Made by a program: the position numbers and the translations under genes. Shown piece by piece: positions 14,013 through 34,213 of a DNA stretch of 56,798 nt (position 1 is the first letter of the stretch; each line of letters begins with the position of its first letter). The stretch is taken from NCBI GenBank assembly GCA_018302815.1, contig JAGVZE010000014.1:1-56798 (forward strand). The letters run 5' to 3'. The notes beneath the pieces are model-generated. The model was not told where the DNA came from. It ran no database searches and saw only the letters and a program-made list of their open reading frames with translations. This DNA comes from Candidatus Woesearchaeota archaeon (GTDB lineage: Archaea; Nanobdellota; Nanobdellia; Woesearchaeales; ARS49).

Positions 14013-15176
14013 ATGACTGTTGACGGCTTATTCGCTGTTGTTTTTATTGTAGCGTTAGCGGTGTTTTTGTGGGCTAGGCGTTCTCGTATTGAGGTTCAAA
14101 AGGCGTTGTTCCCTCTTTTGTATGTGATTATGTATCGTTCATCTTTTGGATTGTCTTGGATGAAGCGTTTCGCGCAAAGGTTTCCTCGTATTCTTCGTGT
14201 GCTAGGTGATATCGGCACAGGAGTTGGTTTTCTAGGAATGGCTCTCATAGCAATCGAGCTTATCCGCAATACGATAATGTTGTTCACAGGTTCAGGCGTT
14301 CCTGGCGTTCAGCCGGTGCTTCCAATAGAGGCCAAGGGAGTGTTTTACATTCCGTTCAGTTATTGGATTATCAGCATTTTCTTGATAGCGCTTGTTCACG
14401 AGTTCGCTCATGGTGTTCTAGCGAACGTGCATAAGATGAGGGTGAAGTCTAGTGGGTTCGCGTTTTTGAGTATTTTTGTTCCAATAATCCCTGCGGCGTT
14501 TGTAGAGCCCGATGAAGTGCAGTTAAGCGCTAAACCCGCAAGGTCGCAGCTTGCAGTGTTCGCGGCAGGTCCGTTCTCGAATATTATTTTCGCCGTTCTG
14601 ATGTTCGGGATTTTGGCTTTGTTTAATCCTCTTTTGAGCATGGCGTTCTTGCCTGGCGGTGTGGAACTAACTGAAGTTTCAGGTCCTGCGCTTGATTCGG
14701 GGCTTAAGGATGGTGACATACTTATCGCTCTTGCTGATCAGCCGATTCATTCTTCAGCGAATGTTTCTACTGTCTTGTCTTCATATGCGCCAGGTGATAT
14801 TATTGAGGTCGGTACAAAGGATGCCGTTTTCAATCTGACTCTTGGCTCAAGTCTTTCGAACGAATCTAGGCCGTATATGGGCATCAAGGCAAGTCCTCAT
14901 CTTGATGTGAACGAGACGTTCGCGCAAATGTATGGTTCAGTAACTCCGATGATACTCAAATGGGTTTCGACTCTTTTTGTCGTCTTGTTTATGCTCAACA
15001 TTGGCATCGGTCTTTTCAATTTGCTTCCGTTGGGCCCGCTTGATGGGGGCAGGATGTTCCAGCTGGTCTGCGTGAAGTTATTCAGGAAAAACGGCATCAG
15101 GGTTTGGTCGTATGTGAGTTTGTTCTTCGTCGTTCTTATTTTTGTGAATTTGGTTGTTGGATTGATTACCGTTTGA
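14013..15176 (+). CDS. Site-2 protease family intramembrane metalloprotease
   Basis: 387 residues. Membrane protein with the zinc motif HEFAHG in LVHEFAHGVLAN (about residue 129) and the third ligand motif LLPLGPLDGGRMF near the C-terminus. A PDZ-like domain lies between the two motifs (SGLKDGDILIALADQPI). This is the S2P/RseP fold, which cleaves membrane-embedded segments in regulated proteolysis. It follows L40e by 5 nt. Its TGA stop lies inside the left arm of repeat copy 2. Confidence 0.9.
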   Translation: MTVDGLFAVVFIVALAVFLWARRSRIEVQKALFPLLYVIMYRSSFGLSWMKRFAQRFPRILRVLGDIGTGVGFLGMALIAIELIRNTIMLFTGSGVPGVQPVLPIEAKGVFYIPFSYWIISIFLIALVHEFAHGVLANVHKMRVKSSGFAFLSIFVPIIPAAFVEPDEVQLSAKPARSQLAVFAAGPFSNIIFAVLMFGILALFNPLLSMAFLPGGVELTEVSGPALDSGLKDGDILIALADQPIHSSANVSTVLSSYAPGDIIEVGTKDAVFNLTLGSSLSNESRPYMGIKASPHLDVNETFAQMYGSVTPMILKWVSTLFVVLFMLNIGIGLFNLLPLGPLDGGRMFQLVCVKLFRKNGIRVWSYVSLFFVVLIFVNLVVGLITV

Positions 15177-15369
15177 ATTTGATACTTTGCAGCTTGCTGC
15201 AGTTGAAAGATTCAAACGGTAAGACAGAAATTGCCTGTCTTGTAGGAGAAAACTCGCGAAATACCGTGGAGCTCTGCTCCGGTGGGATAGCGAGTCCAAG
15301 AAAACGCTTTGCGTTTTCTGGGCCCATAAAACGCATGGCATTTTATTGGTTTCAGGCAATTTCTTTATT
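15164..15369 (+). repeat. Structured repeat family, copy 2 (long form)
   Basis: The left stem ACCGTTTGAA (15168-15177) pairs with TTCAAACGGT (15211-15220) around a nested GCAGC/GCTGC hairpin. The signature AAGACAGAAATTGCC starts at 15221. An internal core of about 115 nt has its own hairpins (ACTCGC/GCGAGT, AGAAAACGC/GCGTTTTCT). The element closes with CAGGCAATTTCTTTATT. The core is about 87% identical by eye to copy 4. The left stem differs in sequence from the other copies but keeps its pairing. Confidence 0.8.
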
Positions 15370-16544: not shown

Positions 16545-17633
16545 GTGGAACAAACGATTGTCGTTGCAGCCAAAGAATTCTATGAACAAGGTCATTCATT
16601 GAGAGAAACGTCAGATTTCTTGGAGAAGACGCACAAGTTACATATCCATCCTAACACGCTAGGTTATCATTTAAAAAGAGCTGGCTTGTTTATTAGGGGT
16701 GTTAGAGAATCTGCAAAACTCGCAAAGCGCAAGCATATCAATGCGGCAAAGCTTGTTGAACGCTATGTGGAGAATCCATCTGTTCGAGCTATATCGTTAG
16801 AGTTTCGTATAAATAGGGCAACAGCAACAAAGATCCTTAAGGAGAATGACATCCGCATTCTTAGCAATGATGAATCGGTGAGAAACGCAAACATGAAATA
16901 CTTGCGACATCAGTTTTCAGGCTCCAATCAGGATAAAGCATATCTTTATGGATTCGTTCTTGGCGATGTTCACGTGTTTCAAAAATCAAAATTCACACTA
17001 AGAGCCGTAACGTATACGACAAGAAAATGTTTTGTCGATCTTTTTACTTGTGAGTTCGACAAGTATGGTATGGTCAACTGCAGAAAGAGTGAAGATGGAA
17101 AGTATGCATTGTGGGTGGACCTGGACTATTGCAGTTTTTCTTTTCTCGAAGAACGTTCGAAAGACAGGATTCCAGATTGGGTGACTGAAAGTAACTTCAT
17201 CTCATTTCTATCAGGGCTTATAGATGCGGACGGCAGTGTTCTAGTGAGAAAAGCAGGCAAGTATTTTCAATATGTTGTCAGAATATTCGGTGAAGATAAA
17301 CAACTTCTTAGTGAGATAAACGAACGACTGACCAATCTAAGATTCAGGCCGAGTTTTAGCCGTACTTTTGAAGCAGGACGAATTAGATATTGGAATGGAA
17401 AATTGATGAGGTACAATAAAGATTATTTCGCTCTTGAAGTTTATAGAAAAGAAGATACGCTGGCATTATTGGCCCTTTTGAGGCTAAAGCACAAAGAAAA
17501 GATTCTTCGCAGAAAACAAGTAATTGCGCTTAGCAAGAAGGGGCTCATCCGCTGGAGAGATATCAAAACAGAAGTTGTAGAATTAAGAAAGCAAATAGGA
17601 GCAGAGGCAGAAGAATCATTTGGTTCAGCATAG
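16545..17633 (+). CDS. LAGLIDADG homing endonuclease with N-terminal HTH
   Basis: 362 residues from a GTG start. Two LAGLIDADG motifs: YLYGFVLGDVHVF (about 134-146, catalytic Asp141) and FLSGLIDADGSVLV (about 221-234, Asp227 and Asp229). Each is followed by the alpha-beta saddle sequence of the family. The first ~110 residues hold two helix-turn-helix units. It is freestanding, not inside an intein or visible intron. The gene is AT-rich compared with rtcB, and its 3' end overlaps the rtcB 3' end by 71 nt on the opposite strand. It looks like a recent insertion at the end of rtcB. Confidence 0.85.
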   Translation: MEQTIVVAAKEFYEQGHSLRETSDFLEKTHKLHIHPNTLGYHLKRAGLFIRGVRESAKLAKRKHINAAKLVERYVENPSVRAISLEFRINRATATKILKENDIRILSNDESVRNANMKYLRHQFSGSNQDKAYLYGFVLGDVHVFQKSKFTLRAVTYTTRKCFVDLFTCEFDKYGMVNCRKSEDGKYALWVDLDYCSFSFLEERSKDRIPDWVTESNFISFLSGLIDADGSVLVRKAGKYFQYVVRIFGEDKQLLSEINERLTNLRFRPSFSRTFEAGRIRYWNGKLMRYNKDYFALEVYRKEDTLALLALLRLKHKEKILRRKQVIALSKKGLIRWRDIKTEVVELRKQIGAEAEESFGSA

Positions 17634-19092
17634 CGGTGCCTTTCACATTCCCGATAGGTTTGAATGCCACGACTTTCTTGCTGATTCCTGCGTTGTGCAT
17701 GACATCGATTACTTCTGAGATTGGTTTGTATGCGAATCCTGCTTCTTCAGCTAGGCCTGAGTAGCTTGCGGTTCTAACATATATTCCTCTTTTTTCCATT
17801 TCTTTTTGGAGTTCTTGTCCTTTGACTTCGCGTCGCGCTTGTGTTCTGCTCATGGTTCTTCCGCTGCCGTGGGCGGTGCTTCCCCAGGTTTCTTCGAGCG
17901 CTTTGTCTGTTCCGACTAGTAGGTAGCTTCCGGTTTCCATGCTTCCGCCGATTATTACTGGCTGTCCTGTTTTTCTGAATCTTGGAGCGAGTTCTTCGCG
18001 TGATGGGCCAAAGCATCGTGTGGCTCCTTTTCTGTGCACTACAAGTTTTCGTTTTTTGCCGTCTACTTTGTGTTCTTCTACTTTGGCTATGTTGTGCGCT
18101 ACGTCGTAGACTAGGTGCATGTCGAGGTCTTCGGCTGTTCGTTCGAATGTTTGGCTAAAGCACTCGCGTATTCTGTGCAGTATGACTTGCCTGTTGGCGA
18201 AAGCCATGTTGGCGGCGCATGCCATCGCTTCGTAATATTTTTGTCCTTCTGTGCTGTTGAATGGAGCGCAGGAGAGTTCAGGGTCAGGTACGTGTAGCTC
18301 GTATTTTTTCATCGCGTCTGCGAATATTTTTAGATAGTCTGTTCCTATTTGGTGTCCGAATCCGCGGCTTCCGCAGTGGACCATTACGCAGATTTGGTCT
18401 TTGCTGTGTATGCCAAATTGTTTTGCGGTTTTTTCATCGAATATTTCTCCTGCGTATTGTATTTCAAGGTAGTGGTTTCCTGAGCCGAGTGTTCCTATTT
18501 GATTGATTCCGCGGCTGACCGCTTTGTCGCTCACTTGGTCTGGGTTTGCTTGTTTTATTCTGCCATAGTCTTCTATGCGTTCAAGGTCTTCTTCCCAGCC
18601 GTATCCTTGGTCGACGCACCATTTGGCGCCAAGGCTCATGACTTCTCTGAATTTTGGCTTGTCGACTTTTACGAATCCTGTTCCGCCTACTCCTGATGGG
18701 ACTTTGGTGTATAGTAAATCGACGAGTTTTTTGAGGTGTGGTTTCATGTCGTTGTATGTGAGGTTTGTCGTGACAAGGCGCATTCCGCAGTTGATGTCAA
18801 ATCCAATGCCTCCGGGCGATATGACTCCTGTGTTGGGATCGAAAGCTGCTACTCCTCCTATTGGAAAGCCGTATCCGCTGTGGCCGTCGGGCATGCATAG
18901 TGCGTGTTTGACTATGCCCGGAAGGCATGCTACGTTTGTTAGTTGGTTGTAGACTGAATTGTCCATTCCTTCAAGTAGTTTTTTGCTTGCGTATATCCTT
19001 GCGGGCACGTTCATTCCTTTTTTGTATGTTTGAGGGATGTCCCAAGTATATTCAGAGCTTTGTTTCATTTCCGGTTTTTGGAATTCGTTCAT
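17563..19092 (-). CDS. rtcB: RNA-splicing ligase RtcB
   Basis: 509 residues. Joins RNA ends with 2',3'-cyclic phosphate, including tRNA exons after intron removal. Conserved blocks: PDGHSGYGFPIGG, DINCGMR (metal-binding Cys about 102), HRKGATR, and the GMP-attachment His in STAHGSGRTMSR. RtcB normally ends at the GNVKG-type C-terminus. Here about 24 extra, mostly hydrophobic residues follow, read from the antisense of the homing endonuclease gene, so the native stop codon has been lost. It overlaps the archease gene by 4 nt. The intron-bearing tRNA-Thr at 42.8 kb is a possible substrate. Confidence 0.95.
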   Translation of the reverse strand: MNEFQKPEMKQSSEYTWDIPQTYKKGMNVPARIYASKKLLEGMDNSVYNQLTNVACLPGIVKHALCMPDGHSGYGFPIGGVAAFDPNTGVISPGGIGFDINCGMRLVTTNLTYNDMKPHLKKLVDLLYTKVPSGVGGTGFVKVDKPKFREVMSLGAKWCVDQGYGWEEDLERIEDYGRIKQANPDQVSDKAVSRGINQIGTLGSGNHYLEIQYAGEIFDEKTAKQFGIHSKDQICVMVHCGSRGFGHQIGTDYLKIFADAMKKYELHVPDPELSCAPFNSTEGQKYYEAMACAANMAFANRQVILHRIRECFSQTFERTAEDLDMHLVYDVAHNIAKVEEHKVDGKKRKLVVHRKGATRCFGPSREELAPRFRKTGQPVIIGGSMETGSYLLVGTDKALEETWGSTAHGSGRTMSRTQARREVKGQELQKEMEKRGIYVRTASYSGLAEEAGFAYKPISEVIDVMHNAGISKKVVAFKPIGNVKGTAMLNQMILLPLLLFAFLILQLLF

Positions 19093-21159: not shown

Positions 21160-21304
21160 GCATCAAAATGAAACAATCTTCCTTATATACTTGTTGATGG
21201 GCGAATTTTATTCAGTTTTTCGCACGGTTTCCACTTTTTTCCCGAAATTACATCAACAGGACTATTGTTTTCCTTTTGAATTCTCGAAGTCGGCCTCCAA
21301 TAAT

Positions 21305-21414
21305 GGGGCTACTGTGATTTCATTTTGGGGTTTTGCCATGTACACACCCAAAATGAAAGACAGAACTTGCCAATGGCAATTTCTTTATTCGAACACGGGC
21401 CACAAGGTCCCGAA
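21305..21414 (-). pseudogene. tRNA-Pro 3'-half remnant, interrupted
   Basis: Bases 21305-21319 plus 21390-21414 together reproduce the last 40 nt of the intact tRNA-Pro next door, with one substitution. A 70-nt structured repeat (21320-21389) splits it in the T-loop. The 5' half of the tRNA is absent, so it cannot be a working tRNA. Confidence 0.85.
21320..21389 (+). repeat. Structured repeat family, copy 3 (short form)
   Basis: 70 nt. The left stem CATTTTGGG/CCCAAAATG is followed by AAAGACAGAACTTGCC, a two-base loop, and GGCAATTTCTTTATT. The exact insertion can be read because the uninterrupted sequence is present at 21481. The target reads GTGATT|CGAAC, with no target duplication or at most ATT. 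Confidence 0.85.
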
Positions 21415-21480
21415 AACGCAAAAACCGTGAACAAAATAAAATTCGCGCGGTTTTCGAATTCTCGAAATCCTCCTCAATAT

Positions 21481-21550
21481 GGGGCTACCGTGATTCGAAC
21501 ACGGGCCACAAGGTCCCGAACCTTGCATCCTACCACTAGACTATAGCCCC
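21481..21550 (-). tRNA. tRNA-Pro (anticodon CGG)
   Basis: 70 nt. Acceptor stem GGGGCTA/TAGCCCC; anticodon stem CAAGG/CCTTG with loop TTCGGGA giving CGG; T-arm CCGTG TTCGAAT CACGG. CCA is not encoded. No intron. Its 3' half is duplicated just downstream. Confidence 0.95.
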
Positions 21551-30964: not shown

Positions 30965-31171
30965 TTTCATTTTGGGTTCCATGCCCCGAAGCTCTGCTTC
31001 GGAAGTTCAGACCCCGAGATGAAAGACAGAAATTGCCGGTCCCGCAGGAGAAAACTCGCGGAATACCCCTGAGCTCTGTTCCGGCTGGATGGCGAGTCCA
31101 AGAAAACGCCCTGCGTTTTCTGGGCCCATAAAATACACGGCATTTTATTGGTTTCAGGTAATTTCTTTATT
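30963..31171 (+). repeat. Structured repeat family, copy 4 (long form)
   Basis: CATTTTGGG (30968-30976) pairs with CCCGAGATG (31013-31021) using G-T wobbles, around a nested CCGAAGC/GCTTCGG hairpin. The signature GAAAGACAGAAATTGCC follows. The internal core is about 87% identical to copy 2, and the element ends CAGGTAATTTCTTTATT. The right stem keeps a wobble where copy 2 has G-C. It starts within the TGA stop of cdc48. Confidence 0.8.
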
Positions 31172-32631: not shown

Positions 32632-34155
32632 ATGGTCTCCCATTTGCTTCCCTATCTTGAAAAGTTTGAAGAGGAACTTTCAAGGGAGAGTTATCTTCAT
32701 AGTTCTGGTCAAAAGGATGAGTCTGAAAGCGCTAAGATTTATGCGGAGTATCCTCATTTGTTCTCAAGGGAGCATATTACGGAAGCGTTTAAGAAAATCA
32801 ATACTAGGGAAGGTAAGCTTCTATATGATGCGTTTGTTGGTAATTTTATGGGTAACGAGCTCAAGGAAGTTTCTGATGAGATGAGTTCGTATGAGTCTTC
32901 AGCGGAGATAGATTTTGAAGGAAGGAAACTGGCGTTTCGTCAGGCGTCAAATGTTTTGGTGAATGAGCCTTTGCGTGAGAAGCGAAAAGAGTTGTACGAG
33001 TCATTAAAGCCGGTGAAGCACAAGCTCACCGCGTATGAGAAAGACTTGTGGGAAAAATGCTACGCTCTGATAAACCAACTTTCAGGCAAGTCGTATCTTG
33101 ATTATGTTTCTTTTGTGAAGGAAGTTGATTATGATGCTTTTGCAGAAGAGCTTAAGGAATTTTTGGTGAAGACTGATGCTTTGCACAAGTCTCAGTTGGA
33201 AAAGAATATGGCGTCAGTTGGTGTTAAGCTTGAGGATGCGATGCCGTATGATTATGCGTTTTTCGCAAGGGCAAAGCCCTTTGATGAGTTTTTCAAGAAG
33301 GAGAATCTTGTTCCGTTCGCTAAGGCTTTTTGGAAAGGTCTTGGATTTGATATTGACGCTCAAAAGAACGTGGTGCTTGACGTCACCGAACGCGAGAAGA
33401 AGGTTCCAAGGGCGTTTTGTATGCCAATTAAGGTTCCAGAGGAGGTTATACTTGTTATCAAGCCTCATGGCGGCCAGGATGATTATCAATCGTTCCTGCA
33501 CGAATCAGGTCACACTGAGCATTTTGCCAACACAAACCCGAAGCTCTCATACGAGTTGAAGCATATGGGCGCTCATAGTGTGTCGGAAACGTACGCGTTT
33601 TTGATTGAGTATTTGATGGCTGACCCGTTGTTTTTGCAGAATTGTCTCAAGCTTCCAAAAAAAGCGGCAAAGGATTTTGCCGAGTTCATTATGGAGACTA
33701 AGCTTCAGGCGTTCAGAAGGTACGCTGCGAAGATTATTTACGAGCTTAAACTGCACAGGACTGATTTGACAAGGCTTGATGAGCGTTTTGAGAAAACTAG
33801 CGGGAAATACAATGATGCAAGCGAGATGTATGTTGACATTTTGACCAAGGCAACCAAGATTAAGTATCAGCCTGAAGGGTATTTGCTTGATGTTGATGGC
33901 GGCATGTATTCAGCCGATTATGTTCGCGCGTGGATTTTTGAAGCTATGCTAAGGAAAAAACTTCTAGAAAAGTTCGGCAAAGATTGGTTCCAAAAGAAAG
34001 AGGCTGGCGATTTTCTAAAGGGTATGTGGAGCTGGGGAAGTTCTGGAAAGTCTTGTGAGGAGCTTGCGCAGATGATTGGTTATGGCAAGCTTGATATTTC
34101 TGTTTTGACCAAGGATTTCGTCGATTTCTTTTTGGGCTCCATGCCCCACAGTTAG
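32632..34155 (+). CDS. M3-family metallopeptidase (oligopeptidase type)
   Basis: 507 residues, helical. The zinc motif FLHESGHTEHF (His290, Glu291, His294) is followed by ETYAFLIEYL, the third Glu ligand of the thimet-oligopeptidase/oligoendopeptidase F group. It would cut short peptides in the cytoplasm. Shorter than typical PepF (about 600). The last nine codons and stop lie inside repeat copy 5, so the C-terminal tail FFLGSMPHS comes from the repeat. Confidence 0.85.
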   Translation: MVSHLLPYLEKFEEELSRESYLHSSGQKDESESAKIYAEYPHLFSREHITEAFKKINTREGKLLYDAFVGNFMGNELKEVSDEMSSYESSAEIDFEGRKLAFRQASNVLVNEPLREKRKELYESLKPVKHKLTAYEKDLWEKCYALINQLSGKSYLDYVSFVKEVDYDAFAEELKEFLVKTDALHKSQLEKNMASVGVKLEDAMPYDYAFFARAKPFDEFFKKENLVPFAKAFWKGLGFDIDAQKNVVLDVTEREKKVPRAFCMPIKVPEEVILVIKPHGGQDDYQSFLHESGHTEHFANTNPKLSYELKHMGAHSVSETYAFLIEYLMADPLFLQNCLKLPKKAAKDFAEFIMETKLQAFRRYAAKIIYELKLHRTDLTRLDERFEKTSGKYNDASEMYVDILTKATKIKYQPEGYLLDVDGGMYSADYVRAWIFEAMLRKKLLEKFGKDWFQKKEAGDFLKGMWSWGSSGKSCEELAQMIGYGKLDISVLTKDFVDFFLGSMPHS

Positions 34156-34213
34156 CGGCGGTTGTACGTTCCCAAAAAGAAAGACAGAAATTGCAGTCAG
34201 CAATTTCTTTAAT
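34123..34213 (+). repeat. Structured repeat family, copy 5 (short form)
   Basis: CTTTTTGGG (34128-34136) pairs with CCCAAAAAG (34171-34179). The A-to-T change in the left arm relative to copy 3 is matched by T-to-A in the right arm. Then AAAGACAGAAATTGC, a short loop and GCAATTTCTTTAATT. It encodes the end of the M3 peptidase and its TAG stop (34153-34155). Confidence 0.85.

Follow-up and report, generated by a model that had tools for sequence, protein, structure and literature searches.

An interrupted tRNA-Pro half beside an intact gene

The window analysed here, the whole stretch of 56,798 nucleotides, is contig C15 of the 1.55-Mb, 26-contig genome (G000) of a Candidatus Woesearchaeota archaeon. 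Its reverse strand contains an intact tRNA-Pro(CGG) gene (21480-21550), identified with ARAGORN and Rfam, and 65 nt downstream in the tRNA sense the relic of a tRNA-Pro 3' half. Comparison with the gene revealed that the relic lies on the same strand in two pieces, one running from tRNA nucleotide 31 to the T arm (21389-21414) and the other from the acceptor side (21305-21318), which together make up 40 nt. The half, starting at tRNA nucleotide 31, scored 28 against the gene, compared with a best of 11.6 in 200 shuffles. A single base separates the half copy from the gene (GGGGCTACTGTGATT vs GGGGCTACCGTGATT), and the 28-mer ATTCGAACACGGGCCACAAGGTCCCGAA is present as an exact repeat, 106 nt apart. 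The duplication extends approximately 29 nt past the tRNA 3' end, where 21273-21302 and the trailer of the intact gene (21451-21478, both on the reverse strand) align with a score of 16.7 (best of 1000 shuffles, 11.9).

Between the two pieces of the relic sits an insert of 70 nt (21319-21388), joined as GTGAT/TTCATTTTGGG...TTTCTTTAT/TCGAAC, where slashes mark the junctions; the gene holds the empty-site version, GTGATTCGAAC. A sequence-only reading of this DNA had claimed that the 40-nt half is present twice, once continuous and once split by exactly 70 nt, with one base of difference between the tRNA parts. We find both statements to be true of the sequence, and the junctions proposed for the insert to be correct. 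An Rfam scan of the window returned tRNAs only, and an H/ACA-like or other known RNA was rejected on this ground as the identity of the repeat. Elsewhere in the window, a 362-aa ORF with a LIDADG motif (16545-17633, forward strand) resembles a free-standing homing endonuclease gene; it is convergent with, and overlaps the end of, an RtcB-like gene (17563-19092, reverse strand).

A related genome, G013, contains the corresponding tRNA-Pro half in an uninterrupted state (L032), 70 nt behind an intact gene and with nearly the same tRNA start nucleotide. Because the half must once have been continuous, and is so in G013, the insert is the derived state and the interrupted copy is not ancestral. 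In G013 (L032:1480-1730) we also observed a complete tRNA-Pro(CGG) nested inside a second tRNA-Pro, which is split exactly between nucleotides 29 and 30. The 5' half of the outer tRNA (nucleotides 1-29) is exact and its 3' half (30-71) carries one difference; the spacers on both sides of the inner tRNA are complementary over ~14 bp, as an inverted repeat, and there is another hairpin ahead of the 3' half. A 5' fragment of the outer tRNA-Pro is possibly retained in G017. Judged from these sequences, the half in the window (21305-21414) is most likely the 3' remnant of the nested arrangement that is intact in G013. The tRNA-half relic of 'Candidatus Woesearchaeota archaeon SURF_65' (G039 = G041) was considered as a further empty site and rejected as too decayed.

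Archaeal integrases often use the 3' halves of tRNA genes as attachment sites, and the half could be such a site of an integrated element, with the 70-mer as its remnant. We give this a next to negligible probability. The 70-mer lies inside the half rather than next to it and is also present at other sites with identical junctions, half and gene are just 65 nt apart, and the nested tRNA-Pro locus of G013 already explains the half. The halves in G013, moreover, do not border an integrase or any other integrated DNA.

The insert belongs to a family of two-hairpin repeats

The 70 nt had been assigned to a repeat family, and both a genome search (local identities of 80-96%) and a covariance model (E 4e-8) bear this out. 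The element, on the forward strand, is a shortened member of a two-hairpin family. The target or left cleavage tetranucleotide TGAT (21315-21318) stays in the left flank, and the 64 scored copies have a T-N-A-T at the same position. Hairpins H1 (21318-21358; arms TTTCATTTTGGG and CCCAAAATGAAA) and H2 (21362-21384; arms AGAACTTGCC and GGCAATTTCT) are supported by covariation and by DNA folding, which gave z = -4.4 for the 70-nt element. The right cleavage site TTAT (21385-21388), the conserved end of the family, belongs to the element. Family members share the layout H1 (TTTCATTTTGGG...CCCAAAATGAAA), linker GAC, H2 (AGAAATTGCC...GGCAATTTCT) and tail TTATT; TTCATTTTGGG... and ...TTTCTTTAT do not match when one of them is inverted, so that there are no terminal inverted repeats. 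Both hairpins of full copies enclose a smaller hairpin, CCCCGnAGCTTGCTnCGG or a variant, with a guide tetranucleotide N'ATA just 5' of it. The 70-mer has neither the inner hairpins nor the two guides.

Our searches gave approximately 16 copies in the host genome, a count that may be incomplete. Copies range from 70 to 207 nt, too short for a transposase gene: full copies have ~150 nt, longer ones, in which H2 contains additional palindromes, ~205 nt, and some few of 70-90 nt are without inner hairpins. Four further copies were located on the forward strand of the window with the covariance model. The first (1093-1276) is degenerate or composite, with model matches at 1093-1184 and 1185-1276. 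In the second (15166-15369) sequence comparison revealed H1 arms, TTACCGTTTGAATC and GATTCAAACGGTAA, that are fully changed yet still pair. The third (30965-31171), called with target TGAT and guide CATG, lies immediately behind the TGA stop codon of the upstream gene, and H1 of the fourth, a short copy (34125-34213), forms the 3' end of the upstream ORF. Several copies, including that at 30965-31171, begin 0-10 nt from an upstream stop codon and run in the same direction; they may serve as terminators or may just be tolerated at these places. In one copy (L014:1449-1586) the inner H2 segment is inverted relative to the others, as if a loop between inverted repeats had flipped.

The covariance model, built from 12 copies in five genomes, matched 51 of the 288 genomes of the order and 43 of its 193 genera; ten candidates were scored per genome, making per-genome family counts lower bounds. 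An exact-pattern survey of relatives had recovered the host only, the pattern being too strict, and the model was required. Among the matches on genome contigs the only true family members were two in SURF_65, and the viral contigs searched gave unrelated chance matches only. Stem sequences vary among copies while pairing is kept. In 33 model-aligned matches, 93.4% of cells were paired, two-sided changes occurred in 39 of 42 pairs, and 302 cells were compensatory vs 88 in shuffles, with slid controls falling to 36-53%; the structure-fitted alignment favours these statistics, though the margin is large.

Two further filled and empty sites

In two of the host's protein genes the repeat has created in-frame inserts of 49 residues, with the element read from opposite strands. 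The first is a radical-SAM methylthiotransferase (MTAB-type) gene, in which 147 nt (G000:C24:83213-83361) are inserted in frame between KERI and MSGRNYAYK. Nine aligned orthologues do not have the insert, and the empty site was taken from G013 DNA. The second, an ORF of 226 aa, contains 147 inserted nt in frame (G000:C24:46262-46410) and reads DSVI(49 aa)IDEILTALM; its orthologues in G013, G008 and G012 are without the insert, and all adjoin the same nucleotidyltransferase-like gene.

All three filled sites have the form T-N-A-T/TTC...CTTTAT/ without target duplication. The uninterrupted half of G013 and these two additional pairs with the same junctions support the claim that the element inserted into the tRNA half. 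The target duplication had been given as none, or ATT, of which the first stands. On the left, ATT belongs to the target T-N-A-T, and on the right it is made up of the element's TTAT and a flanking T; a duplication of ATT was rejected since left and right variants mismatch within copies.

Strong covariation of the paired bases, and the presence of several copies 0-10 nt away from a stop codon and oriented like the gene, would also fit a functional structured RNA, a terminator or 3'-UTR element at gene ends whose mobility is old and incidental. Against this, copies sit in coding frames and in a tRNA relic.

Guide and target bases covary

In IS608, the fourth guide base pairs with position -1 of the cleavage site. 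Under the IS608 rule, N' A x A is the guide expected for T(-4) N(-3) A(-2) T(-1) as the site; the repeats show N' A T A. The IS608 guide is a tetranucleotide 5' of the end hairpin, at +16, where A+16:T-3 and A+17:T-4 pair with the cleavage site (PMC5934647). In the repeats +15 is the first guide position for 33 of 64 copies, most of the others starting between +14 and +17. Sites and guides were called mechanically by a script blind to complementarity. At the left end, site position -3 and guide base 1 formed a Watson-Crick pair in 56 of 64 copies compared with 25.0 expected, in a set where the covariance model was partly built from the scored copies and some genomes give several related ones; the highest count in shuffles was 40, and 0 of 100,000 reached the observed value. 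The pairs were T/A (35), C/G (7), A/T (7), G/C (7) and others (8). When one entry was kept per genome, site and guide, 33 of 40 were Watson-Crick vs 14.9 expected. Guide base 2 and the site are a near-fixed A:T.

The right end gave 53 of 66 Watson-Crick pairs vs 41.9 expected (p 2e-5). As controls, left site and right guide showed no association (p 0.65), and right site and left guide were weakly non-random (p 0.016). This control speaks against the IS608-type rule, as do the 8 of 64 left-end pairs that are not Watson-Crick, two of them G-T and three among the ten scored in the host genome. The guide/target covariation reaches into flanking host DNA, which RNA function leaves unexplained, and we find a structured RNA at gene ends barely credible as the primary nature of the repeat. 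A secondary terminator role may exist beside mobility.

Transposons of relatives carry the same ends

In G042 we identified an intact 547-nt IS200-type transposon that encodes a Y1 TnpA of 142 aa and whose ends are TTTAT/TCCTATTTGGGTAAATACCCCGGGGCTCTGCCCCG and GATACCCCGGGGCTCTGCCCCGATTGGGCCATTCAT/. Both of its ends fit the guide rule (TTAT with AATA, TCAT with GATA), as do both ends of the intact IS200-type transposons of G183 and G279. The intact transposon of G003, from the host's own family, pairs TTAT with AATA on the left and has a T-G wobble on the right; G044 likewise has an intact TnpA, and the one transposon end that its contig includes, the right, agrees with the rule. A ATACCCCG hairpin is found near both ends of the repeats and of the TnpA transposons; the 70-nt copy has lost it. 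Since the autonomous left ends inspected show no obvious outer stem, the repeats seem to have acquired theirs as an addition. We suggest that the outer stems may help the ends to fold out as single strands.

An intact cognate TnpA was not found in the host genome. Its Y1 TnpA content consists of a cognate-type N-terminal fragment, HACHCTYRIRYRLVFLGKYRKKLLF, which resembles the G279 protein, and one unrelated intact Y1 TnpA. We rejected the latter (C26:244315) as the mobiliser, since no ATACCCCG hairpin flanks it and its product represents a different type of TnpA; it probably belongs to another IS. This gene (G000:C26:244315-244659, L049), the host's only intact Y1 TnpA, is seemingly inserted into a LAGLIDADG-type gene, two parts of which flank it in matching orientation.

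Rickettsia palindromic elements are palindromes of ~100-150 nt that occur in frame in protein genes and also in RNA genes. The repeats resemble them in being palindromic and in inserting in frame, and with inserts in two protein genes and in the relic of an RNA gene they could be analogous palindromic repeats that spread by another route, such as template switching. To our knowledge no guide rule has been described for the Rickettsia elements. We regard this reading as very unlikely, given that the fixed T-N-A-T junction, the complementarity of guide and target and the transposons with the same ends are all unpredicted by it.

A probable non-autonomous single-strand element

We conclude, with a probability of about 0.92, that the insert in the tRNA half is a shortened IS200/IS605 element of the PATE type, non-autonomous, furnished with additional outer stems and moved by a TnpA in trans. 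The evidence comprises three filled and empty sites with their junctions, conserved and covarying hairpins, covarying guides and targets, and the TnpA transposons of relatives. Points on the other side are that the host has no intact cognate TnpA, that the tRNA copy itself is without a guide, and that the linkers between right hairpin and right end are longer than those of IS608.

In a full copy of ~150 nt, the left end consists of the T-N-A-T cleavage site, ~14 nt, the guide N'ATA and the hairpin CCCCGnAGCTTGCTnCGG, and the right end of the guide AATA, a hairpin, a linker and the cleavage site TTAT, with a further outer stem (H1, H2) enclosing each end. In the proposed mechanism the inner hairpins, exposed as single-stranded DNA, would be bound by a Y1/HUH TnpA supplied in trans, the guides would pair with the cleavage sites, and the element would be excised and joined 3' of a T-N-A-T picked by the left guide, leaving the target unduplicated. 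The tRNA copy may have lost its inner hairpins after insertion; alternatively, it was already short when it inserted. Very short derivatives that retain only the termini have been described for Haloquadratum elements (PMC3119063). The tRNA copy is probably now immobile, a fossil-like remnant without guides, as far as its sequence tells.

It is moderately probable that these repeats constitute one order-wide family of transposase-less single-strand elements in tiny archaea, in which drift of one guide base re-addresses the element to another tetranucleotide, all four bases being realised and several of them within one genome, and in which a new outer stem at each end was selected for mobility. 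Retargeting of IS608 through an altered guide has been shown by engineering. Here natural variation across dozens of archaeal genomes reveals the IS608-type pairing rule, and the filled and empty sites are direct evidence of insertion. The family accounts for a conspicuous class of hairpin repeats of Woesearchaeota-like genomes, which would otherwise be mistaken for RNA motifs or overlooked, and its members can lengthen proteins by ~49 in-frame residues. It also offers a set of very small, guide-programmed transposon ends that lend themselves to testing.

Comparison with known systems

A close likeness is to the palindrome-associated transposable elements (PATEs) of Haloquadratum walsbyi, which similarly have no terminal inverted repeats, near-terminal IS605-type palindromes, no target duplication and a length too short for a transposase (PMC3119063). 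Unlike in PATEs, the ends of the present repeats are closed by extra outer stems that are conserved by compensatory change, and relatives provide their partner in the form of a tnpA-only IS200-type transposon. The host also belongs to a different archaeal phylum, and protein genes carry in-frame inserts. The repeats share with IS608 and ISDra2 a guide just 5' of the end hairpin that starts at ~+15/+16, the pairing of guide bases 1 and 2 with -3 and -4, and insertion 3' of a short sequence retained in the left flank, here T-N-A-T (PMC5934647). In contrast to IS608 and ISDra2, the repeats have no transposase gene, and guide and target vary naturally at one base, through all four letters, within a single family.
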